This document shows, piece by piece, positions 1,078 through 16,249 of a DNA stretch of 64,000 nt. The notes below the pieces were generated by a model. That model did not search any database. It was not told the origin of the DNA and saw only the letters and a program-made list of their open reading frames with translations. Source of the DNA: Streptomyces sp. ML-6. Its GTDB lineage: Bacteria > Actinomycetota > Actinomycetes > Streptomycetales > Streptomycetaceae. Within the stretch, counting starts at the first letter, position 1, and each line of letters starts with the position of its first letter. Both the position numbers and the translations under genes were made by a program. Location: positions 2,499,001 through 2,563,000 of the forward strand of contig NZ_JAOTIK010000001.1 in the NCBI RefSeq assembly GCF_030116705.1, in the 5' to 3' direction.

Positions 1078-3078
1078 ATGACCCGAAACCCCTCCCGTAC
1101 CCCGTCGTCCGGTGCGCTGACTCTCTCGGTCCTCGGACCGCTCTCCGGGTCCCTGGACGGACGGCCGCTGCTCCTCGGGCCGCGCAAGCAGCGGCTGGTC
1201 CTGGCCATGTTGCTCAGCCGGCCCAACACACCGGTACCGGTGGACGTGCTCACCGACGCGGTGTGGCCGGACGCGCCGCCCCGCACGGCGCGCAAGAACC
1301 TCCAGGTGTACATCAGTTCCGCGCGGGCGCTGCTCGGCGCGCGATGTCCCGGGGGGCCGGACGGCGGCGGTGGCGGCGGGGAACGGCTGGTGCACTCCTG
1401 CGGCGGTTACCTGCTGCGGGTCGGCGAGGACGAGCTGGACTCCCTGCGGTTCCGTTCGCTGGCCGCGGCCGGCCGGCGGGCCGCCGACGACGGCGATCCG
1501 CGGGCTGCCGCCGGTCTGCTGCGCCGGGCACTGGACCTGTGGCAGGGGCCGCCGATGCACGATCTGCGGGACTCGCCGGAGGTGGCTGCGGAGGCGGAAC
1601 GGCTGGAGGCCCGGTGCCTGACCGTGCACGAGGACTGGGCCGAGACGGAGATCTCGCTGGGGCGGGCGCCCGCCGTCGTGGACGGGCTGCGGGACCTCGC
1701 CGAACAGCACCCCCTGCGCGAACGCCTCCGGGCCGCGTGGATGGACGCCCTGCACCGGACCGGCCGCCGGGCCGAGGCGCTCGCCGTGTACGACGACTAC
1801 CGCCAGTTGCTGGCAAGGGAGTTGGGGCTGGAGCCGGGTGCGGCCATCGCCGCCCGGCACCGGGCGATGCTGACCGGCCGGGACGGTGCGGACCGGCCGC
1901 GGGCGGCGGCCCCGGCGCGCCGGACCGAGGCGCTGCGGACGGTGCTGCCCGCCGGGACGCCCGACTTCACCGGCCGGGGCGAGCAGCTGCGGGAGCTGCT
2001 GGACGTCCTGGGCGGGGAGAACGGCCGGGTGGTGGCGGTCACCGGGGCCGCGGGGATCGGGAAAACAGCCCTCGCGGTGCGGGCGGCGCATCTGTTGGCG
2101 GACCGGTTCCCGGACGGCCGGATTCACATCCGGGTCCGCGACGAGCAGGGCGCGGTGCGTCCCCCGTCGGCGCTCCTCGGTGACCTGGCCCGGCTGACCG
2201 GCGACCCGCACCGGGCGGAGCCGATGACGGACCCGGAACACGGGCGGCACTGGCTGGCCACGCACCGTTCGCTGGTCGTGCTCGACGACGTGCCGGACGA
2301 GGCGGCGGTACGGGCCCTGCTGCCGGGCACCGGCGGCAGTTCGTTCGTCCTGACGGCGCGCGGTCAGCTGGCCGGGCTCGCGCCGGTGCACCGGATCGCG
2401 CTGCCGCCGCTGGCCCCCGCCGAGGCGCTGGCGCTGCTGGGCCGGCTGATCGGGGCGGGGCGGGTGGGCCTGGACCGGGCCGCCGCCCTGCGCATAGCCG
2501 ACGCCTGCGGGCTGCTTCCGCTGGCGGTGCGGGTGAGCGGGATGCGGCTGGCGGTGCTGCGGCACCTGCCGCTGGCCGAGTACGCGGAACGGCTGGCCGA
2601 TCCGGCCGGGGCACTGGACGAGTTGGTGGCCGGCGACATCTCGGTACGGGCCCGGCTGGCCTCCGGCTGGCAGGACCTGTCGCCCGGGAGCGGGCTGGCG
2701 CTGGCCCGGCTGGCCTCCGCCGTCCACGAGGGGCCGTTCACCCTGCCGGAGGCCATGACCGCACTGGGCTGCGGCGAACGGCAGGCGCTGCGGGCGGTGG
2801 AGTCGCTGATCGACGCCGGGGTGGTGACCTCCCCCAGCGGCGAGGTCACCGCGCACTCCGTGCTGTACGAACTGCCGCGCCTGACGGGCCTGTACGCCCG
2901 CGAACTCACCGCCGCGGAACCGGCCCCGGCCCCGCAGCCGGAGCCGACTCCGGTGCCGGTGCCGGTGTCGGCCCCTGCCCCGGTGTCGATCCCGGTCTCG
3001 ACTCTGGTGCCGGTGTCGGCTCCGGGGGCCGATGCCCCTTCGGGAGCGGCGCCCCGCACGGCGATACCGGTGGGGTGA
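1078..3078 (+). CDS. SARP-family regulator (DNA-binding + BTAD + NB-ARC ATPase), AfsR-like
   Basis: This 666-aa protein has the SARP layout. An OmpR-like winged helix (residues 15-90, with PRKQRLVLAMLLSRPNTPVP) precedes a bacterial transcriptional activation domain (about 110-265). A STAND-type ATPase follows, with Walker A GAAGIGKTA near residue 322 and Walker B LVVLDDV near 400. AfsR itself is near 990 aa; this one lacks the TPR tail and ends in a low-complexity Pro/Val/Ser tail (about 615-666) encoded by degenerate GTGCCGGTGTCGG repeats. ATG with GTTCTTCGGAGG upstream supports the start. SARPs activate biosynthetic clusters through direct repeats, and 11-base repeats lie upstream of the lanthipeptide precursor gene (7875-7907), so pathway-specific activation is likely. 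Confidence 0.92.
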   Translation: MTRNPSRTPSSGALTLSVLGPLSGSLDGRPLLLGPRKQRLVLAMLLSRPNTPVPVDVLTDAVWPDAPPRTARKNLQVYISSARALLGARCPGGPDGGGGGGERLVHSCGGYLLRVGEDELDSLRFRSLAAAGRRAADDGDPRAAAGLLRRALDLWQGPPMHDLRDSPEVAAEAERLEARCLTVHEDWAETEISLGRAPAVVDGLRDLAEQHPLRERLRAAWMDALHRTGRRAEALAVYDDYRQLLARELGLEPGAAIAARHRAMLTGRDGADRPRAAAPARRTEALRTVLPAGTPDFTGRGEQLRELLDVLGGENGRVVAVTGAAGIGKTALAVRAAHLLADRFPDGRIHIRVRDEQGAVRPPSALLGDLARLTGDPHRAEPMTDPEHGRHWLATHRSLVVLDDVPDEAAVRALLPGTGGSSFVLTARGQLAGLAPVHRIALPPLAPAEALALLGRLIGAGRVGLDRAAALRIADACGLLPLAVRVSGMRLAVLRHLPLAEYAERLADPAGALDELVAGDISVRARLASGWQDLSPGSGLALARLASAVHEGPFTLPEAMTALGCGERQALRAVESLIDAGVVTSPSGEVTAHSVLYELPRLTGLYARELTAAEPAPAPQPEPTPVPVPVSAPAPVSIPVSTLVPVSAPGADAPSGAAPRTAIPVG

Positions 3079-3210: not shown

Positions 3211-5808
3211 TCACCCCAGCGTCAACACGTCCAGCAGATCGGGGCGTTCGTCCGGTGCGGCGAACACCGTGTGCAGGGCGAGCAGCAGCCCCGCCGCGCC
3301 GGTCGCGAGGTCGGCGGAGAAACGCCGCAGCCGTGCGCCCGGCACCAGGAGGCGGTCCTCCTCGGCGACCAGGTGCCAGGAGAGGTTGCGTACCGAGTCC
3401 AGCACCTCGGGGTCCGGTTCGCCGCCCGCGAGCCGGCGGGCGGACAGCTGGTGGGCGGTGGCCACCAGCCCGGCGCGGCCCCGGAAGAGCCCCGGTTCGC
3501 GGACGAACTCCAGGACGCAGCCCTGTCCGATGCCCGGCAGCAGTCCGGCGAGCGCCGGGTCCTCCCGGTGGGCCAGGTAGCGCTGCGCGAGCAGGGCCAC
3601 GCCGCTGCTGCCCTGGTCCAGGTAGAGCAGATGGCGCTTGCCGTCCTTCACCTGCACGCTGCCGCCCGGCATGAGCACGCAGTGCCCGGCCTCCCTGGTG
3701 AGTGCCGCGCCGGCGGCGTCCAGCAGCCAGTCCTCACCGGTGTGCCCGTACAGTTCGAGCTGGAGGAGCGCGGCTCCGCAGAGGCCGGTCAGCAGTCCGG
3801 CGGAGTGCGGGGCAGTCAGGCGGCCGTCGATGTCCTCGCCGCGGACCAGCGAGTCGAGTTCCCAGGCGGTCCGCACGGCCCGGTCGAGCAGTTCCTGGTC
3901 GGGCGTTCCGTCGTCACCGTTTCCGTCGGAGGCGAATCGCAGGGCCGCTAGTGCCGTTCCCGCCCGGCCGGTGAGCAGGTCGGCCGAGGCGGAGGCGGGG
4001 GCCCGCAGCGCCCGGTCGAGCAGTTCGCGCCCCTCCTCGCGGCGGCCGAGCCGGGACAGCACCAGCGCGATGCCGGGCAGCCCGTCGAACAGCCCACCGG
4101 GGGCGTCCGGGCTGCGGCGCAGTGCCGTGCGCGCCAGCCAGTCGACGTGCTCGTCGGGGACGGGGGCGCCGAGGCGGTCCAGGGCGTACAGCACTCCGGC
4201 GGCACCGTGCGCGGCGCAGGCGCCGCCGGTGGTGAAGCCCGTCAGGTCGCCGGGGTAGAGCCGGTCGGTGCGGTCCGGGGTGGCCCCGACGCGGATGCCG
4301 GCGACGAGCCGTTCGCGGATGCCGGGCCAGTCGGGTGCCGGGCCGCGCAGCAGCGCGTCCACGGTCGGTTCGCCGCTGTCGTCCGGGAGGCCGTGGGCGA
4401 GCACGGCCGGTCGCGGCGGCCCCGCGTCGGGCCCCAGCCGGTAGCGGGCGCGGGCCCAGCGCTCCAGGGTGAGGGCCTTGCCGCGGTCGTGGTCCGCCAC
4501 CTCCATCAGCGGCATCAGGGTGTGCAGCCAGATCGCCCAGAGCCCGTAGGCGTCCGCCTCTGCGCCGTTCCGGTTGAGGTCGGGCGGCGCCTGGAGGCCG
4601 GGGGCGCCCGCCGGCGGGGTGTCCGGGTCGTCGAGATCGGTGGCGTACTCGAAGTCGATCAGGACCACCCGGCCGTCGGGGCGGATGATGACGTTGGCGG
4701 GGTGCACGTCCGCGAACCGCAGGCCGCGGGCGTGGATGAGGTCGAGGGCCCGGCCGAGCCCGTCCGTGACGGACTGCGCCCAGCGGGAGTAGGCGTCGAG
4801 TTCGGCGGGGGTGCGTTCGCCGCGCGCCAGCGCGAAACGCGCGACGATCTCGTCGAACAGGGTGGTGCCCTCGATGTACTCCTCGATCAGGAAGTGGTGT
4901 TCCCAGACCGTGCGGACGCCGTACACCTCGGGCACGCAGTCGAGTCCGGCGAGCCGGGTCAGGGCCCGGTGCTCACGGTGCAGCCGGGTGACGGCGTCGT
5001 GCCCGGCGGGGTCGAGTCCGCAGTGCGGCCGGGCCTCGCGCAGCACCACCTGCTGCTTGGTGGTGCGGTGTTCGGCCAGGTAGATGCCGCCCGCACTGGA
5101 GAACTGGAGTGCCTTGGTGACCACGTACGGGAAGTCGTCGTCGTGGGCGGCGGCGCGGGCGGCGAGGTGGGGGCGCAGCGGCTCGGGAACGGTGACCCAC
5201 TCCGGTATCCGGAAGGCCACGCCCCGGGTGTCGGGGACGAGTTCGCCGGACGGGTGGCGCATCGCGCGGACCCGTTCCCCTTCGTCGTCCCGGCACCAGA
5301 GTTCGACGAACGCGCCGTAGCGGACGTACACGGGAGAGTTCCCGATCCGCAGGTCGCTGAGGATGTACGGCCCGCTGCGCCCCTCCAGGGCCTTGCTCAG
5401 GGCGTCGAGCAACTTCAGGAACGCGGGCTCGTCCTCGGGGTAGACGGTGATGAACTTCCCCGCGCTGGAACGGTTCATGTACTTCGCCGACATCAGCCGC
5501 AGGGCACGGCTGCTGCGCAGGAACTTGAACGTCACGCCCTGTTCCAGGCAGATGCGGGCGGTGTCGGCGAGGGTGCGCTCGGCCTCCTCCGGCACGGTGG
5601 AGATGTGGATCTTCCAGCCCTGCTCGGGCAGTTCGGCGGACGCCGGGTGCAGCGCGGTCCACAGGCCGGTGGTGCCGCGCCGCCAGCCGGCAGGCGGTTC
5701 GGCGCGGTCGAGCGGGTAGCGGGTGTCCTCGTCGGGCAGCCGGGCCGGGGTCTCGTAGTAGCGGCGGTCGGCGAGGCAGTACAGCTGGGTCTCCTGGATG
5801 CCGGGCAC
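3211..5808 (-). CDS. Class III lanthionine synthetase LanKC
   Basis: This 865-aa enzyme would dehydrate and cyclise a lanthipeptide precursor in the cytoplasm. It has the class III order: an N-terminal phospho-Ser/Thr lyase region (about 1-210), a Ser/Thr kinase-like domain (about 240-500) with catalytic ADVHPAN near 369 and metal-binding DFE near 384, and a LanC-like cyclase (about 530-865) with GAAGVLYALDRLG and GLLTGLCGAALLQLELY. The usual LanC Cys/Cys-His zinc set is not evident, which fits class III cyclases. I chose the GTG start because AGGAGG lies 6 bases upstream; an ATG 4 bases earlier opens a different frame, and the frame stays open far upstream only as overlap with the MFS gene. 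It follows the MFS gene by 23 bases in one operon. Confidence 0.93.
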   Translation of the reverse strand: MPGIQETQLYCLADRRYYETPARLPDEDTRYPLDRAEPPAGWRRGTTGLWTALHPASAELPEQGWKIHISTVPEEAERTLADTARICLEQGVTFKFLRSSRALRLMSAKYMNRSSAGKFITVYPEDEPAFLKLLDALSKALEGRSGPYILSDLRIGNSPVYVRYGAFVELWCRDDEGERVRAMRHPSGELVPDTRGVAFRIPEWVTVPEPLRPHLAARAAAHDDDFPYVVTKALQFSSAGGIYLAEHRTTKQQVVLREARPHCGLDPAGHDAVTRLHREHRALTRLAGLDCVPEVYGVRTVWEHHFLIEEYIEGTTLFDEIVARFALARGERTPAELDAYSRWAQSVTDGLGRALDLIHARGLRFADVHPANVIIRPDGRVVLIDFEYATDLDDPDTPPAGAPGLQAPPDLNRNGAEADAYGLWAIWLHTLMPLMEVADHDRGKALTLERWARARYRLGPDAGPPRPAVLAHGLPDDSGEPTVDALLRGPAPDWPGIRERLVAGIRVGATPDRTDRLYPGDLTGFTTGGACAAHGAAGVLYALDRLGAPVPDEHVDWLARTALRRSPDAPGGLFDGLPGIALVLSRLGRREEGRELLDRALRAPASASADLLTGRAGTALAALRFASDGNGDDGTPDQELLDRAVRTAWELDSLVRGEDIDGRLTAPHSAGLLTGLCGAALLQLELYGHTGEDWLLDAAGAALTREAGHCVLMPGGSVQVKDGKRHLLYLDQGSSGVALLAQRYLAHREDPALAGLLPGIGQGCVLEFVREPGLFRGRAGLVATAHQLSARRLAGGEPDPEVLDSVRNLSWHLVAEEDRLLVPGARLRRFSADLATGAAGLLLALHTVFAAPDERPDLLDVLTLG

Positions 5809-5831
5809 GGCATACCTCCTGTGGTTCGTGG

Positions 5832-7310
5832 TCAGGGGCGGGGGCTGCCGGCCCCGGTGCGGTCCTCGGGGGGCCCGGTGCGGTCCTCGGGGATCTTGGC
5901 GCTGTCCTCGGGAGTTCCGTGCGCGAGGACCTCGTCCGCGGAGGAGTCGGAGGAGTCGGAAGGGCTGGAGGAGTCGGAAGGGCTGGAGGAGTCGGAGGGG
6001 CTGGAGGGGCTGGAGGAGTCCGACTGCTGCCCGGACGGCTTGGAGACGCCGGAGCGTTTGGACGTGCCGGAACGTCTGGAGGCCCCCAGGGCCGCCGCCG
6101 CCTCGACCACCTCCGGGCCCGGCCGGGCGGACGGGGCGAACGTGACCACGGCGGCGGACACGGCGAGGACCCCGGCGATCGCCCCGAACGTCGTCCGGCT
6201 GCCGAAGGCGGTGAGGAGCGCGCCCGCGGCCAGCGGCCCGAACGGCTGGACCAGCGAGGAGAGGAAGCCGGCCGCGCTCTGCACCCTGCCCACCCGGTCG
6301 CCGGGGGTGACGGTCAGCAGGGTGGAGAGGAAGCCGATGCTGGCCACGGTCGACAGGCACATGCAGGCGGCGCAGAGCAGTCCGGCGAACAGCGGGACCC
6401 GGACCCAGGACATGGCGAGGGCGCTCCCCACACAGAGCCAGCAGGTGGCGGCGATCAGCACCCAGGTGTGGCGTTCGGGGCGCAGCCGGGGGGCGAGGAG
6501 GGCGCCGACGAGAGCCCCGACCGAGATGAAAGTGACGACGGTGCCGCCGCCGAGCCCGGACCTTCCGCCGCTCGAGAAGACGGTCAGCGCGGTGAACGTC
6601 AGGGCGCCGAAGGCGAAGTTCATGCCGAGTCCGAAGACGAGGAGCACGGTCCGCAGATAGGGCAGCCCCCACAGGAACGAGAGCCCGGCGGTCAACTCGG
6701 CCTTGCTGAAAGCCGATCCGGACCTGGTCTCGGATCTGGACCGGGTGCGCACCAGGGCCACGCAGATCGTGGACAGCAGGAGCCCGACGGCCTCGGCGAG
6801 GAACGGCAGGACCGGGTGCAGCCCGAACAGGGCGCCCCCGACCATCGGCCCCACCAGCCGCGCGGTGGAGGTACGGGCCTGGAGCCGGGCGGTCGCGGTC
6901 CCCATGTCCTCGGGGGGCACGACGGTCCGCATCAGCCCGAACGCGGCGGGCCCGTAGAGGCTGCCGATGATGGCGCCCGCGCCCGCGACCAGCAGCACCA
7001 GGGGCAGCGGTACGTGCCCCAGCCACACGGCCACGACGAGGGCGCCGACGACGCAGAAACTGCCCAGGTCGCACAGGCGCATCAGCCTGCGGCGCTCCAC
7101 CCGGTCGGCCACCACCCCGCCGGGCAGCATGGTGATCAGGACCGCGGTGACGGACACCGTGCTGATCGCACCGGCCTGCACGGCCGATCCGGTCTCGCGG
7201 AGCACGAGCAGCGGCAGGGCCAGTGCGGTCATCTGGGTGCCGAGGATGGCGAACAGACCGCTCATCCACAGCAGTCGGAAGTCCCGGTTGTTTCGTAGCG
7301 AGGCGGCCAT
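5832..7310 (-). CDS. MFS transporter, probable lanthipeptide exporter
   Basis: A 492-aa major facilitator protein with about 12 predicted membrane segments and the MFS loop signature near GGVVADRVERRRLM. It resembles the enterobactin-exporter/tetracenomycin class of MFS drug exporters. It lies between the class III precursor gene and lanKC, so export of the mature peptide or self-protection is the best guess; many class III loci use ABC exporters instead. The start is ATG with GGGAG 8 bases upstream. The C-terminus is unusual: about 90 residues of Ser/Asp/Pro repeats (SDSSSPSDSSSP) encoded by a minisatellite, probably a disordered cytoplasmic tail. Confidence 0.85.
   Translation of the reverse strand: MAASLRNNRDFRLLWMSGLFAILGTQMTALALPLLVLRETGSAVQAGAISTVSVTAVLITMLPGGVVADRVERRRLMRLCDLGSFCVVGALVVAVWLGHVPLPLVLLVAGAGAIIGSLYGPAAFGLMRTVVPPEDMGTATARLQARTSTARLVGPMVGGALFGLHPVLPFLAEAVGLLLSTICVALVRTRSRSETRSGSAFSKAELTAGLSFLWGLPYLRTVLLVFGLGMNFAFGALTFTALTVFSSGGRSGLGGGTVVTFISVGALVGALLAPRLRPERHTWVLIAATCWLCVGSALAMSWVRVPLFAGLLCAACMCLSTVASIGFLSTLLTVTPGDRVGRVQSAAGFLSSLVQPFGPLAAGALLTAFGSRTTFGAIAGVLAVSAAVVTFAPSARPGPEVVEAAAALGASRRSGTSKRSGVSKPSGQQSDSSSPSSPSDSSSPSDSSSPSDSSDSSADEVLAHGTPEDSAKIPEDRTGPPEDRTGAGSPRP
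5949..6020. repeat. 18-bp coding minisatellite in the MFS gene tail
   Basis: Near-identical 18-base units (GGAGGAGTCGGAAGGGCT on the plus strand) repeat three to four times, one partial at nine bases. On the coding strand they give the acidic Ser/Asp/Pro tail. Copy number is likely to vary between strains. Confidence 0.8.
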
Positions 7311-7425
7311 CGTCGGCTCCCGGTCGGTGATGCGGGGACAGGGCTCGGCCGGTGGCCCGGCGAAGGCGACGGCCCTGCGGGGTGGCGGCCCGGTGAGCGC
7401 TGGACCCGTGGTGAGCGCTGGGCCC

Positions 7426-7467
7426 GGTGAACGCGGGGTCCGGCCCGGTGAACGCGGGGTCCGGCCC
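7426..7467. repeat. 21-bp perfect tandem repeat between lanA and the MFS gene
   Basis: Two exact 21-base copies (7426-7446 and 7447-7467, starting GGTGAACGCGGGG) follow two weaker GTGAGCGCTGG copies near 7393-7425. They lie in the untranslated stretch between precursor and exporter genes. Confidence 0.8.
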
Positions 7468-7479
7468 GGAAAATCGAGG

Positions 7480-7511
7480 CGGGGCGGTCTCCGTGTGACG
7501 GAGCCGCCCCG
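7480..7511 (-). terminator. Hairpin downstream of the class III precursor gene (attenuator)
   Basis: Arms CGGGGCGG-t-CTCCG (7480-7493) and CGGAGCCGCCCCG (7499-7511) pair over 13 bp with one bulged base and a 5-base loop. On the minus strand it lies after the precursor stop and before the exporter. Such partial terminators often give high precursor mRNA and less mRNA for processing genes. Confidence 0.7.
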
Positions 7512-7580
7512 TTTCGGCCGGCCGGGCGCCACGGGGGAAGGTTCATTCCCCGGGTGGCGCCACGGCCCGGTCATCAGTCC

Positions 7581-7736
7581 TTACTGCTCCGACATGACCA
7601 CGCTGACCACGCTGACGCAGCTGCCGTCGATCTCGCGGTCGACGTTGACGGCGGTCTCCTGGAGGTCCAGCACGGAGTGCGCCTCGACCTCGGGGGTCTC
7701 GTTGTTGTCGCCGGCCGGCTTGGTGTTCTCAGCCAT
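7581..7736 (-). CDS. Class III lanthipeptide precursor peptide (LanA)
   Basis: The 51-aa product begins MAENTKPAGDNN and contains SVLDLQ at residues 21-26, matching the leader motif (LLDLQ/ILELQ type) that class III synthetases recognise. The predicted core end is GSCVSVVSVVMSEQ (38-51), with one Cys (C40) and Ser at 39, 42, 45 and 49. Typical class III cores have Ser-x2-Ser-x(2-5)-Cys, with Cys last; here Cys comes first. The start is ATG with GGAG 9 bases upstream. It heads the minus-strand operon with the MFS gene and lanKC. The cleavage site is not evident. Confidence 0.87.
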   Translation of the reverse strand: MAENTKPAGDNNETPEVEAHSVLDLQETAVNVDREIDGSCVSVVSVVMSEQ

Positions 7737-7874
7737 GGTGGTCTCCGTCCACTCGTATGACTCTGCGGTCTCCGGTCGTTCCGGGGCGGACCCCGGTTCT
7801 TCCGGTTGCGGCCGGCGGGTGCCTGCCGCTGACCAGAAAGTTAGGAGCCCCGGCCTGGCAAACGGCTCGACGCC

Positions 7875-7907
7875 GGTATGGCGGCGGTATCGCGGCAGTT
7901 CACCGGG
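7875..7907 (-). promoter_or_regulatory. Candidate SARP operator: three 11-bp direct repeats
   Basis: On the plus strand three consecutive 11-base units read GGTATGGCGGC, GGTATCGCGGC and AGTTCACCGGG. The first two differ at one base. SARP regulators bind heptamer direct repeats with an 11-bp period. On the minus strand a possible TAACTT -10 box lies at 7843-7838 with a poor -35 (GCCGTT) 17 bases upstream, 8 bases from the repeats. That suits an activator-dependent promoter for the precursor gene starting at 7736. Binding is inferred. Confidence 0.5.
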
Positions 7908-8026
7908 GGTCGACCGGGGGCGTACGGGTGTTCCACGGGCCCGGTGGCGGGCCGCCGGACCCGGCCCGGCCTGCGGCCATACCGGTTCCGAACCGGTTCC
8001 GGACCGGTGCCGAACCGCCCGGCGGG

Positions 8027-8198
8027 ACGCTGTACCCGCGCACGGCGGACGCGCTGTCCGCCTGCCGGGCCCGTACGCCCGGAACGGCCGTCGCATCCGG
8101 GCCCGTGCGCCCGGAACGCATCGCCGTACCCGCGCACGAACGAACCACGAACGCTGTACCCGCGCACGAACCACGAACGCTGTATCCGCGCACGGCGG
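8027..8198 (+). repeat. Four copies of a CGCTGTACCCGCGCACG motif upstream of the radical SAM gene
   Basis: Copies lie at about 8027-8048, 8122-8138, 8151-8168 and 8177-8198, with the last two separated by a 26-base period including ACGAACCACGA. They end 38 bases before the radical SAM start. They could be operators or simply expanded sequence. Confidence 0.6.
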
Positions 8199-8235
8199 CC
8201 GCGCGCCGCACCCCTACGCCCGAAGGAGACGGCCG

Positions 8236-9342
8236 GTGGAACTCGCCGAACTCGTCGGACTGCGGCCGGTCCCGGCCGGTGGAGTGCTGGTCACCCTCAC
8301 CCGCCGCTGTCCGCTGCGCTGCTCCCACTGCTCCACCGGCTCCGGGCCGCAGGTGCGGGAGGAACCGGAGGCGGACGCGCTGAAACGCTTCGTCTTCTCG
8401 TTCACCGCCGCCGACCGGCCCGACGTGATGATGCTGACCGGGGGCGAACCACTGCTCCGGCCGGACCTGGTGGCCTCGCTCACCCGTTCCGCACGGGCCG
8501 CCGGCACCCGTACCGCGCTGCTCAGCGGCATGTTCTTCGCCCGGTCCCACGGCCTTTCGGCCCCGATGCGGCGGGTGGTGCGCACGCTCGACCACTTCTC
8601 CGCCAGCCTCGACCTGCCGCACGAGCGGGAGGTGCCCCGGGCCGCGGTGTTCCGCGCGGTGCGCGAGATCCGCGAGCTGGGGGTGGCGGTCAGCTTCCAC
8701 CTCACCGGGACCGGCGAGGACGACCCGTACCTCGCGGACGTCACCGCGGACATCGACCGGACCTTCGGCGGAACGGTGCCGTCCCTGGTCAACGAGGTGC
8801 GGCCGTTCGGCCGGGCGGCGTCCTGGGCCCGCCCGGCGCGGACCGTGCCGGACGGCGGGGGCGCGCTGCCGTGCGCGATGGCCGCCTGGCCGGTGGTCGC
8901 CTTCGACGGCACGGTGCTGGCCTGCTGCAACCAGGACACCGTGGACCGCCGCCCCGTACCGCCCCATCTGCGGCTCGGCCACATCGCCCGGGACGACTGG
9001 TCCGCCGTACGGGCGCGGGCGCTGGGGTCGCCGCTGCTGCGGCTCGTGCGCACGGTCGGCCCGGCCCATCTGCGGCAGCGCTGGTCGCCCGGCACCCCGG
9101 CCGGTTCCTACTGCGGGGACTGCCGGCGGCTGGGCGAACTGCCGGAGGTGGTCGCCGCGGCCGACGCGCTGGCCTCGGGCGCCGCGGGCGCGCTGCTCGA
9201 CCTGACCGCCGCCCGCCGGCAGCACGAGCAGGGGCCGGTGACGCTGGTGCGCCGCCACGGCTGCGCCGCGTACGCCGGCCTGGTGGCGGCCCGGGGCGGC
9301 GACCTGTCCCCGCCCCCGGCGACGGAAGGCGCCGGGACATGA
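8236..9342 (+). CDS. Radical SAM/SPASM-type RiPP-modifying enzyme
   Basis: This 368-aa enzyme has the radical SAM CxxxCxxC cluster motif as CPLRCSHC (C25, C29, C32), then LTGGEPLL near residue 73. The C-terminal part has scattered Cys residues (CAMAAWPVVAFDGTVLACC and YCGDC) suggesting auxiliary Fe-S clusters of the SPASM/Twitch type. Such enzymes crosslink or epimerise residues in peptides. The start is GTG with AAGGAG 8 bases upstream. Its stop overlaps the next start (ATGA), so the two are translationally coupled. The substrate could be the divergent class III peptide or the 66-aa protein two genes downstream. Confidence 0.88.
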   Translation: MELAELVGLRPVPAGGVLVTLTRRCPLRCSHCSTGSGPQVREEPEADALKRFVFSFTAADRPDVMMLTGGEPLLRPDLVASLTRSARAAGTRTALLSGMFFARSHGLSAPMRRVVRTLDHFSASLDLPHEREVPRAAVFRAVREIRELGVAVSFHLTGTGEDDPYLADVTADIDRTFGGTVPSLVNEVRPFGRAASWARPARTVPDGGGALPCAMAAWPVVAFDGTVLACCNQDTVDRRPVPPHLRLGHIARDDWSAVRARALGSPLLRLVRTVGPAHLRQRWSPGTPAGSYCGDCRRLGELPEVVAAADALASGAAGALLDLTAARRQHEQGPVTLVRRHGCAAYAGLVAARGGDLSPPPATEGAGT

Positions 9343-10289
9343 GCCCCGTGGCCCGGCCCCCGGGACGCGCCGCGGAGCCGGTCGCGGAACCCGTCGCGGC
9401 GCAACTCCCGGGACGTACCCCGGATCCCGCCCCGGATCCCGTCGCGGCGTCGCGCCCGGCATCGGCTCCCGGGCGGGCCTCATCGACTCCCGGCCGGGCT
9501 CCTCGACCCGTCCGGGACACCGCCCCGTCCGCCGCCGCCCGGGTACCGGGGGCGCGCGGCGGGCGCGGGCTTTCGGCCTCCGAACGACTGCGGGTCAAAC
9601 TCGCCTTCGCCGAACCGGCGTTGCGCGCCTCGACGGCCGGGCTGTGGCGGCCCGAGGGGCTGCTGTCCCGCTACCGGTCGTACCTGTGCGCGATGCACAC
9701 GGTCATCCGGGCCTCCGTACCGCTGATGGAGCGGGCCACCGAACGGGCCGGGCTGCTGGCCCGGCGCGGCGATCCGCTGGGCGCGCCGCTGGCCGCCTAC
9801 CTGGAGGAGCACATCCGGGAGGAGGCGGAGCACGACACCTGGCTGCTGGAGGACCTGACGGCGGCGGGCAGCGGCCCCCGGGCCGCGCTGGACCCGGTCC
9901 CGCCGCCGCTCGTCGCCTCCCTGGTGGGGGCCCAGTACTACTGGATCGAGCACCACCACCCGGTGGCGCTGCTCGGTTACATCGCCGTGCTGGAGGGGCA
10001 CGCCCCGGCGGCGGGCCTCGCGCCCCGGCTGGCCCGGCTGACCGGACTGCCCGCCCCGGCCTTCCGCACCGTGCACGAGCACGCGCGGCTCGACGGCGGC
10101 CATGCCGACGAACTGTACGCACTGCTCGACCGGTTGCCGTTGTCGCGGGGCCAGGAGGCGGCCGTGGCCGTCAGCGCCCTGCACACCACGGACGCGCTCA
10201 CCCAGTTGTTCGTCCGGCTCGGGCGCACCGGACCGGCGCCGCCGGTGCGGGGAGCCGGGCGGTCCGTCCCGAGGGAAGGCCCGACATGA
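9339..10289 (+). CDS. Haem-oxygenase-like iron-containing redox enzyme
   Basis: The 316-aa protein begins with about 75 Pro/Ala/Arg-rich residues, likely disordered, then a helical domain. Candidate metal ligands sit in EEHIREEAEHD (about 156-166), WIEHHHP (about 203-209) and HEHARLDGGH (246-255). Spacing of Glu, His and Asp-x-x-His resembles haem-oxygenase-like diiron oxidases. Such enzymes hydroxylate, desaturate or cleave small substrates. It overlaps both neighbours by ATGA, so it is an integral member of the operon. The reaction cannot be predicted. Confidence 0.78.
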   Translation: MSPVARPPGRAAEPVAEPVAAQLPGRTPDPAPDPVAASRPASAPGRASSTPGRAPRPVRDTAPSAAARVPGARGGRGLSASERLRVKLAFAEPALRASTAGLWRPEGLLSRYRSYLCAMHTVIRASVPLMERATERAGLLARRGDPLGAPLAAYLEEHIREEAEHDTWLLEDLTAAGSGPRAALDPVPPPLVASLVGAQYYWIEHHHPVALLGYIAVLEGHAPAAGLAPRLARLTGLPAPAFRTVHEHARLDGGHADELYALLDRLPLSRGQEAAVAVSALHTTDALTQLFVRLGRTGPAPPVRGAGRSVPREGPT

Positions 10290-10486
10290 CCGAACCACCG
10301 GACCGGCTCGCCGTGCTGTACGGCGCCGGGTTCGCCGTCGATCTGCTCACCGACGAACAGCGGCAGGTACTGAACGACCTCGCACCGGAGGAACTCACCG
10401 TGCTGCTCGACATCAAGAGCCGGCTCGACGCGGTGGGGCCCGAGGTGGAGGCGCACGGCGAGATCGCGGGCGGCGCCCTGTTCTGA
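10286..10486 (+). CDS. 66-aa small protein, aroma-sacti cluster domain-like; possible RiPP precursor
   Basis: The product starts MTEPPDRLAVLYGAGFAVD and ends AHGEIAGGALF. The middle (LTDEQRQVLNDLAPEELTVL then LDIKSRLDAVGPEVEAH) is a compact helical pattern I associate with short actinobacterial proteins named aroma-sacti cluster domain proteins, found beside radical SAM genes. The start overlaps the stop of the preceding gene (ATGA). It could be a precursor with a short C-terminal core, or an accessory recognition protein. It has no Cys, so a classical thioether sactipeptide core is excluded. Confidence 0.68.
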   Translation: MTEPPDRLAVLYGAGFAVDLLTDEQRQVLNDLAPEELTVLLDIKSRLDAVGPEVEAHGEIAGGALF

Positions 10487-10635
10487 GGCCGCCCACCGGG
10501 TTCCGGGCCGGCCGGCGATCCGCCGGCCGCCCCGGGGCCGCCCGGGTCCTGCTCCGTCGGGACCCGTCGCGCGGCGGGCCGGTTCCCGTGACCGGGCCCG
10601 CCGCTCCGGCCGGGCCAAGCAGAGAGGAAGCGCTG

Positions 10636-13600
10636 ATGAACTGCACATCGTGCCGGCACGAGCTGCCCGCCGCCGCACGGTTCTGCCCGTTCTGCGGCAC
10701 CCCGTGCCCGTCGCCCGTGGCCGCCGCGCCGGAGGACGAACGCAAGCTGGTCACCGCGGTCTTCTGCGACCTGGTGGGTTCCACGGCGCTGTCCGGGCTG
10801 CTGGACCCGGAGACCCTGCGCACCGTGACGCTGCGCTACTTCGCGGTGATGAGCGAGCAGATCGAGGCGCACGGCGGCACCCCGGAGAAGTTCATCGGCG
10901 ACGCCGTGATGGCGGTGTTCGGGGTGCCGGTGATGCGTGAGGACGACGCGCGGCGGGCTCTCGCCGCGGCGCTCGGCATGCGGGAGGCGCTGGCGGAACT
11001 GAACACCGAGCTCGAAGCCACCCTGGGCATCCGGCTCGACATTCGGATCGGCGTCAACACCGGTCAGGTGGTGGCGAGTTCCGATGCGAGCACCCGGCAG
11101 GCGCTGATCTCGGGCGAGACGGTGAACGTGGCGGCCCGGCTGGAGCAGAACGCGGCGGCCGGCGAGATCCTGATCGGCCCGCAGACCCTGGAGGCCGCCG
11201 GTCCGACGGTGGTCGTCCAGGAGACGGGCCCGCTGCGGCTCAAGGGCAAGAGCGACAGCGTGTCCGCGTACCGGCTGATCGCGCTCGGCGCCGACGACCC
11301 GGAGCTGCTGCGCCGTTTCGACGTGCCGTTCATCGGCCGCGCCGCGGAGCGGGCGGCGCTGGACGAGGCCCTGGAGCACACGGCGCGCGGGGCGGGCCCG
11401 GGGCTGGTCCGCCTCGTCGGTGACGCCGGGATCGGCAAGACCCGCCTGGCGCGCGAGTGGCTGGCCGGCCTCGACGGCCCCGGGCGGCCGGTCGTCGGGA
11501 CCGGCCGCTGCCGCAGCTACGGGGACCACGGCACCCTGGCGCCGCTGGCCGACGCGGTACGGGAGGTGCTCGGCTCGCCGGTCGCCCGGGAAGCGCTGCG
11601 GGAAGCGGTGCGGGAGGCGTCGGCCGGGGTGTCCGGGCGGTCCGGGGCCGCGGTGGCGGACGCGTGGGAGCTGCTGCGCGGCGGCCTGCTGCACGACGGC
11701 ACGCCCAACGCCCCGTTCGAGGACATGTGCGCCGCGCTGATCACCGTGCTGTCCCGGACGGCGGAGCGGCGGCCGGTGCTGCTGGTCGTCGACGACTGGC
11801 ACTGGGCCGAACCGCTGCTGGTGCGGACGGTGAACCGGCTGGCCGGGCCGCTGGGCCGGGCGGGCGGGCTCATCGTGTGTCCGGGCCGCCCGGACGGGCC
11901 GCCGGCCGCCGCCGACCCGGCCGCGGACCCTGCCCGGATCCTGCCGCTGACCGGCCTGCCGCGCGCCGAGGCCGCCCTGCTGGTCCGCGAACTGACCGCC
12001 TCGGCCTCCCCCGCCACAGGGGCCGCTCCGGGCACGTACGGCCGCGTCCCCCACCCCCGTACCCCGCACGACACCGACTCCTACAGTCACGACCTCTACG
12101 AGCGGGCCGAGGGAAACCCCCTCTATCTGGAGCAGCTCCTCGTCCCGGCGGGCCCGGATGCGGCGGGCCCGGTGCCGGAGGGGGCGCGGGACGTACGGGG
12201 CTCGGCGCTGCCGCCGACCCTCCAGGCGCTGCTGGGGGCCAGGATCGGCACGCTGGAACGGGCCGAACGCGCCACCCTGGACCTGGCCGCTGTCGTCGGC
12301 CGGGACTTCACCGCCCCGGAACTCGTCCGGCTGACCCGGGCGGCCCGGGAGGCGGAGCACACGGCCCGCCCCGTACCGGCCGCGCACCCCGAGGGGTCCG
12401 CCCCGGAGGACGACCGGGGCCGGGTGGCCCGCGCGCTGGCCCGGTTGCGCGGACGCCGGCTGGTCGAGGCCGCGCCGGGCGGCGAACCGGGCGCGGGACG
12501 GCACCGGTTCAGCAGCGGCCTGGTCCAGGAGGTGGCGTACGACTCGCTGTCGAAGCGGGCCAAGGCCGAGCGGCACGCCTGGGCGTCCGAGCTGCCCAGT
12601 GTGACGGCGGCGGGCGAGGCGGCGGTCGGCGGGCATCTGGAGCGGGCGTACCGGTACCGCACCGAGCTGGGGCTGGCCGACGACCGGGCCGCCGCCCTGC
12701 GGGTCCGGGCCGCCGCCGCGCTCGCCTCGGCCGGTGCGCAGGCCCTGGCCCGTTCCGATCTGCACTGGGCGCAGGGCCTGTTGGAGCGTGCCGTGGATCT
12801 GCATCCGGCGGGTGACCCGGCCGCGGCACCGGCGCTGCGGCGGCTCGGCGAGGTGCGGCTGGCGCTCGGCCGGGCCGAGGACGGGGAGCGCCTGTTGCGG
12901 CAGGTGCTGGCCATCGGGACCGCGCCGGTGGAGGCCGCGCACGCCCGGCTCGCGCTGGCGGTGCTGGACCCGGCCTCGGTGAGCGTGTCGGCCACGGCCC
13001 GGTCGGTGCTGCCGCTCTTCGAGTCCGCCGGGGACTGGATCGGACAGGCGCGGGCCCGGTTGCGGCTGGCCCAGCGGTTGCAGCTGGCGGGCCGGCACGA
13101 GGAGGCCGACCGCGATCTGACCCTGGCCCTGGACCACGCGGTGCGGGCCGAGGCGGAGCCGGAGCGGGCGGCGGCGCTCGGCGCCATCGGGATCTCGCTG
13201 TGGCGCGGGCCGGAGCCGGTACCGGTCGCGGTGACCCGCTGCCGGGGCCTGCTCGCCGCGCACGGCGCAGGCCGCCCGGCCGTCCGGACCACCCTGAACT
13301 GCCCGCTGGCCGTGCTGTACGCGCTCCACGACCGGGCGGACCGGGCCCGGGAGTGCCTGGCCGAGGCGGAACGGCTGGCCGACGAGCTGGGGTACGCGGA
13401 GGCGGAGGTCTTCCTTCCGGTGTTCCGGGCGACGGTCGAGTCGCTGCTCGGGTGCACCGGCCCGGCCCTGGACCTGCTCGTCCGGGCGGACCGGGCGGCG
13501 GAGCGCGCCGGGGCCCGGTCCATGCGGCCGGCCATCGCGCTGGAGGCGGCCCGGTTGCTGCTCGACGACGGCCGGCCCGGCGAGGCGGGTCCGTGGCTCG

Positions 13601-13938
13601 AAGGGGTCGGGGAGGAGCGGCCGTTGCCGCACTCCGACCGGGTGGACCTGGCGGGGCTGCGGGCCCGGCTGGCGGCGGGGGCCGGGGACGCGGGGGCGGC
13701 CCTGCGTCACGCGGACCGGGCCGTGCGGGACTCCCTGCTGACCGACTCCCCGTTGGTACGGGCCACCGCGTCGCTGGACCGGGCGCGGACGCTGGCGCTG
13801 CTGGGCGACGCGGCGGGGGCCTCGGCGGCGGCGCGGGAGGCCCGGGAGGGGTTCGCGGAGAAGGGACATCTGCCGGGCGAACGGTGGGCCGCACGGCTCG
13901 TCGCCGGACCGGCGGCGGCCACGACGGAGAAGAGCTGA
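10636..13938 (+). CDS. Zinc-ribbon / nucleotidyl cyclase / AAA-type ATPase / TPR signalling protein
   Basis: This 1100-aa protein starts with a CxxC...CxxC zinc ribbon (C3, C6, C17, C20), then a class III adenylate/guanylate cyclase domain (about 35-215, with VFCDLVGST and FIGDAVMAVFG). A STAND-type ATPase follows with Walker A GDAGIGKTR near 265 and Walker B LLVVDDWHW near 385, then alpha-helical TPR-like repeats to the end. No LuxR helix-turn-helix is seen at the C-terminus, unlike many LAL regulators. It likely senses a ligand and makes cyclic nucleotide, or uses the domain as a switch. A 149-bp gap precedes it; the start has GAGGAAG upstream. The gene downstream follows by 2 bases. Confidence 0.85.
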   Translation: MNCTSCRHELPAAARFCPFCGTPCPSPVAAAPEDERKLVTAVFCDLVGSTALSGLLDPETLRTVTLRYFAVMSEQIEAHGGTPEKFIGDAVMAVFGVPVMREDDARRALAAALGMREALAELNTELEATLGIRLDIRIGVNTGQVVASSDASTRQALISGETVNVAARLEQNAAAGEILIGPQTLEAAGPTVVVQETGPLRLKGKSDSVSAYRLIALGADDPELLRRFDVPFIGRAAERAALDEALEHTARGAGPGLVRLVGDAGIGKTRLAREWLAGLDGPGRPVVGTGRCRSYGDHGTLAPLADAVREVLGSPVAREALREAVREASAGVSGRSGAAVADAWELLRGGLLHDGTPNAPFEDMCAALITVLSRTAERRPVLLVVDDWHWAEPLLVRTVNRLAGPLGRAGGLIVCPGRPDGPPAAADPAADPARILPLTGLPRAEAALLVRELTASASPATGAAPGTYGRVPHPRTPHDTDSYSHDLYERAEGNPLYLEQLLVPAGPDAAGPVPEGARDVRGSALPPTLQALLGARIGTLERAERATLDLAAVVGRDFTAPELVRLTRAAREAEHTARPVPAAHPEGSAPEDDRGRVARALARLRGRRLVEAAPGGEPGAGRHRFSSGLVQEVAYDSLSKRAKAERHAWASELPSVTAAGEAAVGGHLERAYRYRTELGLADDRAAALRVRAAAALASAGAQALARSDLHWAQGLLERAVDLHPAGDPAAAPALRRLGEVRLALGRAEDGERLLRQVLAIGTAPVEAAHARLALAVLDPASVSVSATARSVLPLFESAGDWIGQARARLRLAQRLQLAGRHEEADRDLTLALDHAVRAEAEPERAAALGAIGISLWRGPEPVPVAVTRCRGLLAAHGAGRPAVRTTLNCPLAVLYALHDRADRARECLAEAERLADELGYAEAEVFLPVFRATVESLLGCTGPALDLLVRADRAAERAGARSMRPAIALEAARLLLDDGRPGEAGPWLEGVGEERPLPHSDRVDLAGLRARLAAGAGDAGAALRHADRAVRDSLLTDSPLVRATASLDRARTLALLGDAAGASAAAREAREGFAEKGHLPGERWAARLVAGPAAATTEKS

Positions 13939-13940
13939 GG

Positions 13941-14819
13941 ATGACGACCACGGACACGGCCCCGGGGCCGGGACTGACCTGGAGTCTGCGGGGACGCGGA
14001 CCCGACGACGTGGCGGTTCTCGCGGACCCGGGCCCGGGGCACGAGGACGGGACCGTACCGGGCACCGGGCGGGGCGTACGGGTCTGCGTGGTGGACTCGG
14101 GCGTCGAACGCGACCATCCGGGCGTCGGCCCGGTCGCCGGCTCATGGGTGGTGGTCAAGGACCCGGAGACCGGCGGGACCGAGGTGCGGCCGACCGACAC
14201 CGGGGACTCCTGCGGGCACGGCACCGCCTGCGCGGGCATCATCCGGCGGACCGCCCCGGAGTGCGAACTGCACAGCGTACGGGTGCTGGGCGAGCGGTTC
14301 TCCGGTACCGGGGACGTGCTGCTGGCCGGGTTGCGCTGGGCGGTCGAGCAGGGCTTCGACGTGGTGAACCTGTCGTTGTCCACCACCCGGGCCCGGTTCG
14401 CCGAGGAGCTGCACTCGCTGGCCGACCGCGCCTACTTCAACCGGACGGTCGTGGTCGCCTCGGCGCACAACTCCCCGGTGGAGAGCTACCCGTGGCGGTT
14501 CGCCTCGGTGATCTCCGTGGGCAGCCACCAGGAGGAGGACCCGGACCTGCACCTATACAACCCCGAACCGCCGGTGGAGTTCTTCGCCCCCGGCCAGAAC
14601 GTGACGGTGCCGTGGCTGGGCGGCACCTCGATCCGCACCACCGGGAACAGCTTCGCGACCCCGTACATCAGCGGACTGTGCGCGCGTCTCCTCTCGTCCC
14701 ATCCGAGGATGACGGCCTTCCAGCTCAAGAACGCCCTTTATCTCTCCGCGGCCAACGTGCGGTTCGGTCCGCGGCTTCCCACCCCGGCAGGAGAGGTCTG
14801 CGATGACTCCGAGAACTGA
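13941..14819 (+). CDS. Subtilisin-like (S8) serine peptidase without signal peptide
   Basis: The 292-aa protein carries the S8 triad: D52 in VVDSGVERDHPG, H93 in CGHGTACAGI and S237 in GNSFATPYISG, with VASAHNS supplying the oxyanion Asn. No signal peptide or propeptide is visible, so it should act in the cytoplasm. Dedicated S8 proteases remove leaders in some lanthipeptide systems, and this locus has no other leader peptidase, so leader removal is a fair inference. It starts 2 bases after the cyclase/ATPase gene and overlaps the GAF gene by 17 bases. Confidence 0.88.
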   Translation: MTTTDTAPGPGLTWSLRGRGPDDVAVLADPGPGHEDGTVPGTGRGVRVCVVDSGVERDHPGVGPVAGSWVVVKDPETGGTEVRPTDTGDSCGHGTACAGIIRRTAPECELHSVRVLGERFSGTGDVLLAGLRWAVEQGFDVVNLSLSTTRARFAEELHSLADRAYFNRTVVVASAHNSPVESYPWRFASVISVGSHQEEDPDLHLYNPEPPVEFFAPGQNVTVPWLGGTSIRTTGNSFATPYISGLCARLLSSHPRMTAFQLKNALYLSAANVRFGPRLPTPAGEVCDDSEN

Positions 14820-15417
14820 ACCAGTGTCCGCGTCGGCGTCCGCCGCGGGAACGGTCCCACCGGTCGACCCGCACCGGCGCGAACTCCTCCAGTCCATCGT
14901 CGACGTGGCCCGCGCGATCTTCGGGGCGGAGGCCAGTTCGGTCTTCCTGCTGGACGAGGAGGCCGACGAGCTGGTCTTCCAGGCGGTGTCCGGCCAGGGC
15001 GAGGAGTTCCTGGTGGGCCGCAGGTTTCCGGCCGGCCGCGGGATCGCGGGCTGGGTGGCGACCTCGGGCGAGCCGATGGTGGTGGACGACCTCACCACGG
15101 ACACCTCCTTCGACCGTTCGCTCGCCGAGTCCACCGAGTTCGTGCCCGACTCCCTGATGGCGGCCCCGCTGATCAGCGACGGGCAGGTGCTCGGCGTACT
15201 GGAGGTGCTCGATCCGTCGCCGCGCGCCCGGACGGACATGCGGGAACTGGACCTGCTCGCCATGTTCGCCCGGCAGGCCGCGGCGGCGCTGCGGATGGCC
15301 GCGCACGCCCCCGCCGCCGGCGCACAGGGACTCGGCGCGGGGCTGGGGCCACGTCAGCGGGCGGACGCGCTGCGACTGCTGGGTAGTCTGGAGCAGCTGC
15401 TCCGGGAGCCCTGCTGA
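14803..15417 (+). CDS. GAF-domain protein
   Basis: The 204-aa product has a single GAF sensor fold at about residues 25-170 (SSVFLLDEEADELVFQAVSG, GRGIAGWVATSGEPMVVDDL, MAAPLISDGQVLGVLEVLD) and no output domain. It might sense a small molecule or cyclic nucleotide and act with the cyclase/ATPase two genes upstream. The 17-base overlap with the S8 gene supports a shared operon. Confidence 0.88.
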   Translation: MTPRTEPVSASASAAGTVPPVDPHRRELLQSIVDVARAIFGAEASSVFLLDEEADELVFQAVSGQGEEFLVGRRFPAGRGIAGWVATSGEPMVVDDLTTDTSFDRSLAESTEFVPDSLMAAPLISDGQVLGVLEVLDPSPRARTDMRELDLLAMFARQAAAALRMAAHAPAAGAQGLGAGLGPRQRADALRLLGSLEQLLREPC

Positions 15418-15457: not shown

Positions 15458-16249
15458 GTGAAGTTCGCCTTCTCCACCCTCGGAGTGCCGGGGCTGCCCA
15501 TCGCCGATGTCGTCCGGCTCGCCGTCGACCACGGCTACCAGGGGGTGGAGCTGCGGGCCCACCCGGAGGAGCCGGTGCACCCGGGCCTCTCCGCCTCCGA
15601 ACGGGCCGCCGTGGCCGAGGAGTTCGAGAAGGCCGGCGTACGGATCCTGACCGTCGCCGGGTACGTCAGGGCCGCCGCCGAGGGCGACGACGCGCCCGTG
15701 CTGGAGGAGCTGGCCGGGCTGGTGGACCTGGCGCACGACCTGGGCGCGGAGAACGTCCGGGTCTTCCCGGGCGGCGGCGGCCTGCCCCCCGCCGAGGCCG
15801 ACGCGAACGCCGCCCGCCGCCTGGCCGCCGCCGCCCCGCACGCCACCGACCGGAACGTACGCATCCTGCTGGAGACCCACGACTCCCACCGGGCCGGCGC
15901 GGACGTCGCCCGGATCGTCGGAACGGTCGGCCACGCCCGGATCGGCGCGCTGTGGGACATCATGCACACCTGGCTCGCCGACGAGCCCCCGGCCGCGAGC
16001 CACGCGGTACTGGCCCCGTACCTGGGCTACGTCCAGGTGAAGGACATCGCGTCCGCCGAGGACACCGAACCGCTCCCCCTGGGCGCCGGAGCACTGCCCC
16101 TGGCCGCCTGCCTGGCCACCCTGGACCCGGACAGCTGGGTCTGCTGGGAATACGAGAAGCGCTGGCACCCGGCCGCCCCTCCCCTGCCGGACCTCCTGAC
16201 GGCGGGGCGGGAGCATCTGCTGAGCTTGGGCGCGCCGCGGGGGCGGTAG
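15458..16249 (+). CDS. Sugar phosphate isomerase/epimerase (AP endonuclease 2-type TIM barrel)
   Basis: The 263-aa protein matches the xylose isomerase-like TIM barrel family, with metal-binding residues in LLETHDSH, ALWDIMHTW, YVQVKDI and CWEYEKRW. Members isomerise or epimerise sugars, inositols or hydroxypyruvate-like compounds. The start is GTG with GGAAGG 11 bases upstream. It lies 40 bases after the GAF gene, but no clear functional link to the RiPP genes exists. Confidence 0.85.
   Translation: MKFAFSTLGVPGLPIADVVRLAVDHGYQGVELRAHPEEPVHPGLSASERAAVAEEFEKAGVRILTVAGYVRAAAEGDDAPVLEELAGLVDLAHDLGAENVRVFPGGGGLPPAEADANAARRLAAAAPHATDRNVRILLETHDSHRAGADVARIVGTVGHARIGALWDIMHTWLADEPPAASHAVLAPYLGYVQVKDIASAEDTEPLPLGAGALPLAACLATLDPDSWVCWEYEKRWHPAAPPLPDLLTAGREHLLSLGAPRGR

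Follow-up and report, generated by a model that had tools for sequence, protein, structure and literature searches.

What has to be explained about the 64,000-nt stretch of the Streptomyces sp. ML-6 genome analysed here (the window, G000:C1:2499001-2563000 in a 9.13-Mb genome) is why a class III lanthipeptide operon stands back to back with an operon for a radical SAM enzyme, an oxidase, a 66-aa protein, a cyclase-ATPase, an S8 subtilase and a GAF-domain protein. The reading proposed, to which a probability of roughly 0.7 is given, is that two ribosomal peptide pathways share one S8 leader protease, which would read a tag, EVEAH, carried by the precursors of both.

The preliminary description had reported this layout, and the gene reading and the domain searches (Pfam and NCBIfam) agree with it. 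The genes for the lanthionine synthetase (LanKC), a major facilitator superfamily (MFS) protein and the precursor (LanA) lie on the minus strand, and those from the radical SAM enzyme to the GAF protein on the plus strand, with 499 bp between the two operons. The features, in window positions (as used throughout), are as follows.

1078..3078, plus strand: SARP-type regulator (BTAD, NB-ARC; PF03704), adjoining the cassette in most related loci
3211..5808, minus strand: LanKC, class III lanthionine synthetase, GTG start (NF038151, 886.5 bits, cut-off 575)
5832..7310, minus strand: MFS transporter (PF07690), probable exporter
7581..7736, minus strand: LanA precursor of 51 aa containing the LDLQ box; 30 relatives
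7602..7619, minus strand: LanA core, CVSVVS, of the type CxSxxS (the reverse of the order in SxxSx(2-5)C)
7677..7691, minus strand: EVEAH tag of LanA, candidate signal for cleavage by S8
7737..8235, no strand: divergent putative control region, 499 bp, with four 28-nt direct repeats at 8027-8204
8236..9342, plus strand: radical SAM enzyme (PF04055), EpeE/YydG-like fold by structure model
9339..10289, plus strand: haem-oxygenase-like (diiron-type) oxidase (HDO; PF14518), ATGA overlap with the radical SAM gene
10286..10486, plus strand: 66-aa NF045560 precursor-like protein, ATGA overlap with the oxidase gene
10442..10456, plus strand: EVEAH tag in the 66-aa protein
10457..10483, plus strand: C-terminal GEIAGGALF of the 66-aa protein, proposed core with aromatic end
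10636..13938, plus strand: zinc-ribbon / class III cyclase / AAA protein (cyclase-ATPase; PF00211, PF13191), probable regulator, separated from the 66-aa gene by 149 bp
13941..14819, plus strand: S8 subtilase (PF00082), proposed shared leader protease
14803..15417, plus strand: GAF-domain protein (PF01590), probable sensor, 17-nt overlap with the S8 gene

In the proposed scheme, the constant pathway would modify the 66-aa precursor at its C-terminal GGALF end through the radical SAM enzyme and the HDO, and the second pathway, with exchangeable cargo, would modify LanA through LanKC, the product being exported by the MFS protein. The S8 protease would cut both precursors after (P)EV[EQ]AH, i.e. 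after His, and in LanA a second trimming step would then remove the rest of the leader with the LDLQ box. The SARP, cyclase-ATPase and GAF proteins may regulate the set. What can be read from the sequence is that there are two precursors, that they share a tag, that this tag is restricted (with one exception) to loci or genomes with this S8 family, that unrelated cargo pathways are tagged as well and that the S8 triad is intact.

The EVEAH tag and the S8 protease

When GTDB genome contigs were searched with the radical SAM sequence, 44 related loci were obtained, mostly from Streptomyces (loci and genomes are given below as L- and G-numbers, respectively). LanA lies across the control region in 36 of the 44, and the gene order is the same as far as the contigs reach; hence, the locus is not a chance assembly. 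LanA has the pattern M[SAT]ENTxP...EVEAH..LDLQ..., and EVEAH is also present in the 66-aa protein. The LDLQ box was found in the window LanA and in 48 LanA open reading frames (ORFs) of 36 loci, and all 48, for which the selection was on the ORF start regardless of the tag, include EVEAH.

For comparison, 60 control LanKC loci were hand-picked among the matches listed; 59 of these were unlinked and one (L126) was linked. The linked set comprised the radical SAM scan loci (L002-L045) together with L061, L164, L168 and L172, and L006 and L028, which have no LanKC on the contig, were kept in it for their LanA. Using one script, LanAs containing [DE]Vx[AG]H were detected in 38 of 42 linked LanKC loci versus none of the 59 unlinked loci, among which a LanA was found in 42 and none in 17. 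The four other linked loci included two with only an untagged LanA and two with no LanA found by the script, and tagged LanAs that it missed are visible by eye in L043 and L172 (scored as none) and in L061 and L168 (scored as untagged). As judged by ORFs, the tag is present in 49/51 linked and 0/55 unlinked LanAs. The background frequency of [DE]Vx[AG]H was 108 occurrences in 660,368 residues of larger predicted proteins, or ~0.0075 per 50-aa peptide. Genome G199 includes both situations, a linked LanKC with a tagged LanA and, 13 kb away, a second LanKC with an untagged one. The residue following the tag was S, A, G or T at 25 of 29 sites hand-picked by the tag.

The S8 protein has a D52, H93, S237 triad which, together with N177, is invariant in 22 rows, and its nearest solved relatives by sequence are subtilisins. 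Neither a signal peptide nor a prodomain was recognised on inspection of the S8 sequence, and its structure model was moderate (predicted local distance difference test score, pLDDT, 81). The S8 family (E<=1e-40) and NF045560 (over its cut-off) were found in the identical 29 of 150 genomes of the genus. Among 392 genus genomes, S8 was present in 64, and the second radical SAM enzyme of the cassettes described below (E<=1e-80) in 24, all of them within the 64; the profile of tagged LanAs matched 25 genomes, 24 of which have S8. In four of these genomes the cassette does not lie near S8: in G260 the two share a contig at a distance of 4.2 Mb, and in G304, G316 and G427 they lie on different contigs. 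As the EVEAH common to the precursors tracks S8, shared proteolytic maturation, beyond shared regulation, is suggested. The preliminary description had offered two systems of ribosomally synthesised and post-translationally modified peptides (RiPPs) under common control as one of its two possibilities; the two systems are retained here, and common control is extended by a tag that follows the protease.

The tag is also kept in loci that have S8 but lack the window-type radical SAM enzyme and oxidase (L075-L077, and L070, L074, L079 and L163 with the EVEGQ variant). In L164 of genome G517, a natural deletion has run HDO residues 74-128 into cyclase residues 912-1081. Nothing matching the 66-aa or the GAF protein was found at this locus, which keeps S8 (79% over residues 9-273) together with LanKC and a DVLAH-tagged LanA. 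This deletion supports S8 as the partner of the tag but does not decide the matter.

A specific S8 position, residue 181, was considered as the tag reader. It is E with Ala-His tags (60 rows), P, H, L or T with EVEGQ (4 rows), and I or R with DVEGH (L170, L173), but V accompanies an Ala-His tag in L038, only one or two contrasts are independent, loop 177-182 is of low confidence in the model, and the S8 tree lost L170 and L173 through the extraction rule. This assignment was not upheld and is kept as a hint.

Proposed exchangeable cargo and chemistry of the two halves

The preliminary description had turned to co-occurrence of the two halves in other genomes. They do co-occur in the 36 radical SAM loci with LanA, but the radical SAM half is also found without LanKC, and LanKC (108/150 genus genomes) is commoner than NF045560 (over cut-off in 29/150), lying within ~7 kb of NF045560 in at least 13 of those 29 genomes. 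The remaining eight loci (L036-L043) gave no LanA match and keep the radical SAM, HDO, 66-aa, cyclase, S8, GAF and SARP genes, with rearrangements in L039-L042. Because these eight loci keep the right-hand genes without a LanA match, the right-hand module is of wider occurrence, and the lanthipeptide side looks like an addition to it.

Loci without a nearby LanKC hold other tagged precursors in the same place, and LanKC-less radical SAM loci often have another EVxAH-tagged peptide where LanKC would be. One cargo type is a 37-42-aa peptide, e.g. M[PA]ENTNPxP..EVVAH.., the neighbours of which are a glycosyltransferase-like gene and genes for two DUF6895 proteins, a second radical SAM enzyme, an MFS protein and a prolyl oligopeptidase. 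The peptides of cassettes with this second radical SAM enzyme were tagged in 24 of 25 places. Fifteen DUF6895 loci away from NF045560 were hand-picked as controls; G260 and G304 have the tagged cassette, and no tagged precursor was seen in the other 13. Another cargo type, found in seven places, consists of 85-91-aa peptides of three units, PEV[EVI]AH...WCG[VI]HQE, with the tag ahead of each unit. These three-unit peptides (L142:5144-5413, L143:4666-4941, L174:2999-3268 and L201-L204) are accompanied by their own radical SAM enzyme, MFS protein, S9 protease and glycosyltransferase-like gene. Similarly, peptides of the StsA-like family f17 have PEVEAH just ahead of their Cys-containing part, with S8 located elsewhere in the genome (3.4 Mb away in G161). 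A possible further tagged class is seen at L171:1904-2179, where a Nif11/NHLP-like leader (NF038399, 39.9 bits, cut-off 40) has EVEAH before DSTPAYY.

The LanKC enzymes linked to the cassette fall in two separate clades of a 77-row tree, one including the window's LanKC (10 rows) and one consisting of L037 (Virgisporangium), L043 and G199. The linkage label requires two changes on this tree, and the starred branches force two; it was made by a quick method, with G199 counted twice, L024 dropped, and L164, L168, L172 and L188 left out. LanKC would thus have been recruited to the cassette independently from two lineages. The core CxSxxS was present in all 49 LanAs (37 loci) of the window's lineage, each with one Cys, and SxxSx(2-5)C in none of them; these 49 were chosen by the tag and are uninformative on its conservation. 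Such cores predict a ring polarity opposite to the usual for this LanKC, and the second linked lineage keeps the usual order. Unlinked LanAs mostly start directly at the LxLQ box, and linked LanAs have an extra N-terminal stretch, the tag preceding the LQ box in most and following it in L037 and L164. Named relatives of LanA are annotated as hypothetical, save one labelled 'FxLD family lantipeptide'. Pairs of LanA paralogues occur in 12 of 37 loci (L006, L009, L016, L017, L025, L027-L032 and L044) and perhaps represent a two-component lanthipeptide.

In the constant half, the whole 66-aa protein is covered by its match to NF045560 ('aroma-sacti cluster domain'; 75.7 bits, cut-off 30), and in LanKC-type loci its C-terminus is ...PEV[EQR]AHGE[IF]AGGALF. 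It stays with the radical SAM enzyme and the oxidase in the LanKC-less loci L036, L039-L042, L062-L065 and L067-L069. NF045560-type tails ended in F, W or Y in 72/72 cases in loci with HDO versus 0/17 without it; this set, like the one behind the comparison of S8 residue 181, holds near-duplicates (L078/L027, L040/L042, L041/L166), and no tail was found in L020, L164, L169 and L171. Because of this 72/72 versus 0/17 distribution, the radical SAM enzyme and the oxidase probably act on the C-terminal aromatic end of the 66-aa protein. An end so nearly invariant would fit a signal or cofactor better than an antibiotic under diversification.

Residues E162-x2-H165, E219 and H248-x3-D252-x2-H255 of HDO are invariant in 22/22 sequences. 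The arrangement E-x2-H, E, H-x3-D-x2-H is that of the UndA-type diiron ligand set, and the window HDO fits it. By this ligand pattern the oxidase is predicted to be of the haem-oxygenase-like diiron type, its metal and activity being predictions likewise. The radical SAM model (pLDDT 92) had EpeE/YydG as its best PDB match (template modelling score, TM, 0.61). Pfam made no call of a SPASM domain in this enzyme, and its invariant C-terminal C213, C230, C293 and C296 are compatible with one.

The 66-aa protein was also considered as a StsA-related sactipeptide, and this was rejected as it has no Cys and scores 22.2 bits against NF045559 (cut-off 75). NF045560 proteins ending in Cys (NVVC, NVLC) do occur in L070, L071, L072, L074 and L163, adjoined by genes for a radical SAM enzyme and a flavoprotein (PF02441), with a B12-radical SAM protein as well in L070; this Cys-ended set is another RiPP-like system. 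A row of four small NF045560-type proteins with the ends GASFW, GGLFW and GAGLW was seen at L080:9746-10675.

Three further observations concern the window itself. The 28-nt direct repeats in the divergent region are possible regulator sites. The GAF gene is followed by a gene for a Xylose isomerase-like TIM barrel protein (15458-16249; PF01261), which is also present in many LanKC-type loci. At 16514-18011, there is a clustered regularly interspaced short palindromic repeat (CRISPR)-like array with 25 exact 28-base repeats and a spacing of mostly 61 bases, in which two adjacent spacers look identical by eye (17708-17801).

Alternative explanations and significance

Several observations weigh against a shared S8 protease. 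Cleavage and its exact site, the pairing of enzymes and substrates, the chemistry and the regulation are what we infer from the sequences, and a cut after EVEAH would leave the LDLQ part on most LanAs. Genome G544 encodes an EVEAH peptide, and its subtilases are of generic type (best E 2.5e-22), none belonging to the S8 family considered here; this peptide, which lies beside a SARP 51% identical to that of the window, has no Cys and has LDAQ, with no LanKC in the stretch, and is perhaps a remnant. Untagged peptides are also found, namely one of three LanAs in L168 and the second cassette copy in G540. No tagged cargo peptide was found in L036, and the only cargo candidate in L038 (L038:9578-9745) is an untagged 55-aa Cys/Ser-rich peptide upstream of the radical SAM gene, with PEVQLMSH instead. 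The deletion in L164 is a single case, in a genome with a second, complete S8 locus (L163). The cyclase and GAF genes accompany S8 nearly as closely as the tag does, and their products are possible tag readers too. Finally, the genomes are phylogenetically related, and the counts do not represent independent events.

The best surviving alternative, though an unlikely one, is that EVxAH serves docking or recognition and is not a protease site, its partner being either a constant companion of S8 (the cyclase-ATPase or GAF protein) or the first radical SAM enzyme. The strong conservation of EVEAH is as expected of a docking site, and the cyclase and GAF genes lie beside S8 in nearly all loci read. 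However, seven peptides repeat the tag before each of their three units, and a tag on every unit points to a processing site, as a docking site would not need such repetition. Furthermore, L075-L077 keep the tag without a window-type radical SAM enzyme, in L164 the S8 gene and a tagged LanA have outlasted the loss of GAF and of most of the cyclase, and the position of the tag relative to the LQ box varies.

It is improbable that the two operons are neighbours under common regulation only, with the LanA tag derived from leader exchange within the locus and of no shared function. This would fit the divergent arrangement around a single control region, with a SARP gene alongside, and a tagged leader could descend within one locus lineage, but two separate LanKC clades and other pathways are all tagged, and cassettes remote from the S8 locus have kept the tag (G260, G304, G316, G427). 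The other possibility in the preliminary description, a single hybrid peptide on which the radical SAM enzyme and oxidase act together with LanKC, would account for the halves being kept together in 36/44 loci but is very improbable, as these enzymes stay with the precursor-like 66-aa protein where LanA is absent (L036, L039-L042), the aromatic tails that follow the oxidase mark this protein as the substrate, and the cores of the 49 LanAs have no conserved aromatic residue.

The shared-protease reading can be widened, with about even odds, to a platform in which a SARP, cyclase-ATPase, GAF and S8 core makes a near-invariant peptide, perhaps signal- or cofactor-like, and S8 is the hub for interchangeable EVxAH-tagged cassettes. 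The cargo of this platform, located in the locus or elsewhere, would be class III lanthipeptides from both LanKC lineages, in one of which the ring polarity would be inverted, the radical SAM/DUF6895 type and the three-unit peptides.

RiPP proteases of the S8 type, lanthipeptide proteases encoded away from their clusters and NF045560 proteins have all been described before. Among open-licence PMC papers, no report was found of one tag that unrelated RiPP precursors have in common and that follows a single S8 family, and nothing was found on 'aroma-sacti', on RiPPs involving a haem-oxygenase-like oxidase and a radical SAM enzyme or, by title, on the letters of the tag. According to the parts of PMC8960859 and PMC7268733 available, most class III lanthipeptide clusters have no protease gene, and leader removal is poorly understood. 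With a tag and a candidate protease readable from sequence, the question of leader removal becomes directly testable, and a rule for finding unlinked precursors is provided, namely to look for EVxAH in small ORFs of genomes that carry S8 of this family. If true, a protease for several RiPP classes would be a general tool for leader removal, and it would illustrate how tagging of the leader brings in new peptide pathways.

Comparison with known systems

Class III lanthipeptide clusters of the SapB/AmfS type (NF038151) share with the window the LanKC, the LDLQ leader box, the short precursor and the exporter, but the window has in addition a tagged N-terminal leader stretch, the adjoining S8 and radical SAM half, and the CxSxxS core. 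In the mycofactocin and pyrroloquinoline quinone (PQQ) pathways, a conserved short peptide and a radical SAM enzyme give a small peptide with an aromatic or hydrophobic end, and the PQQ pathway includes an oxidase of haem-oxygenase fold. The window radical SAM enzyme is far below the cut-offs of both families (mycofactocin TIGR03962, 19.6 bits, cut-off 265; PQQ TIGR02109, 36 bits, cut-off 381.35). Also close are the StsA/StsB sactipeptides and the NF045560 'aroma-sacti' proteins: the 66-aa protein has the NF045560 domain, and StsA-like relatives have the same cyclase/S8/GAF set (L075-L077), whereas the 66-aa protein of the window lacks Cys, ends in GGALF and has a haem-oxygenase-like oxidase as partner.

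In the QhpD/QhpE system, as described in the available part of PMC7876137, a radical SAM enzyme modifies a leader-bearing protein, and a cytoplasmic subtilisin-like protease then removes the leader. A similar order of a radical SAM enzyme and a subtilisin-like protease is proposed for the window, the substrate here being a 66-aa protein without Cys, and QhpE (NF049966) is the top NCBIfam match of S8, below its cut-off (108.3 bits, cut-off 165). The match of S8 to the PatA/PatG cyanobactin protease family (TIGR03895) is also below cut-off (37.1 bits, cut-off 421.05). In the sections of PMC10885120 available, the S8 leader protease ElxP has the motif (D/E-5)(L/V-4)x2(Q-1), PatA cuts after G(L/V)E(A/P)S, AmyP is given with (T/S/A)EVE on class III leaders, and further leader trimming is described for other class III peptides (AplP, FlaP). 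S8 has the subtilase fold in common with ElxP, PatA and AmyP, and the tags share with the ElxP motif an acidic P5 and a P4 of Leu or Val, which is Val here. The window tag, ending in His, departs from the ElxP motif as given there, whereas EVEGQ of L070, L071, L072, L074, L079 and L163 fits it. Unlike these three proteases, as far as that source describes them, one S8 family apparently serves unrelated RiPP classes here, also in trans. Unclustered lanthipeptide proteases likewise serve precursors encoded elsewhere, but those covered in the available part of PMC8960859, M16 or others, act on one class, whereas here one S8 family would act through a tag common to several.

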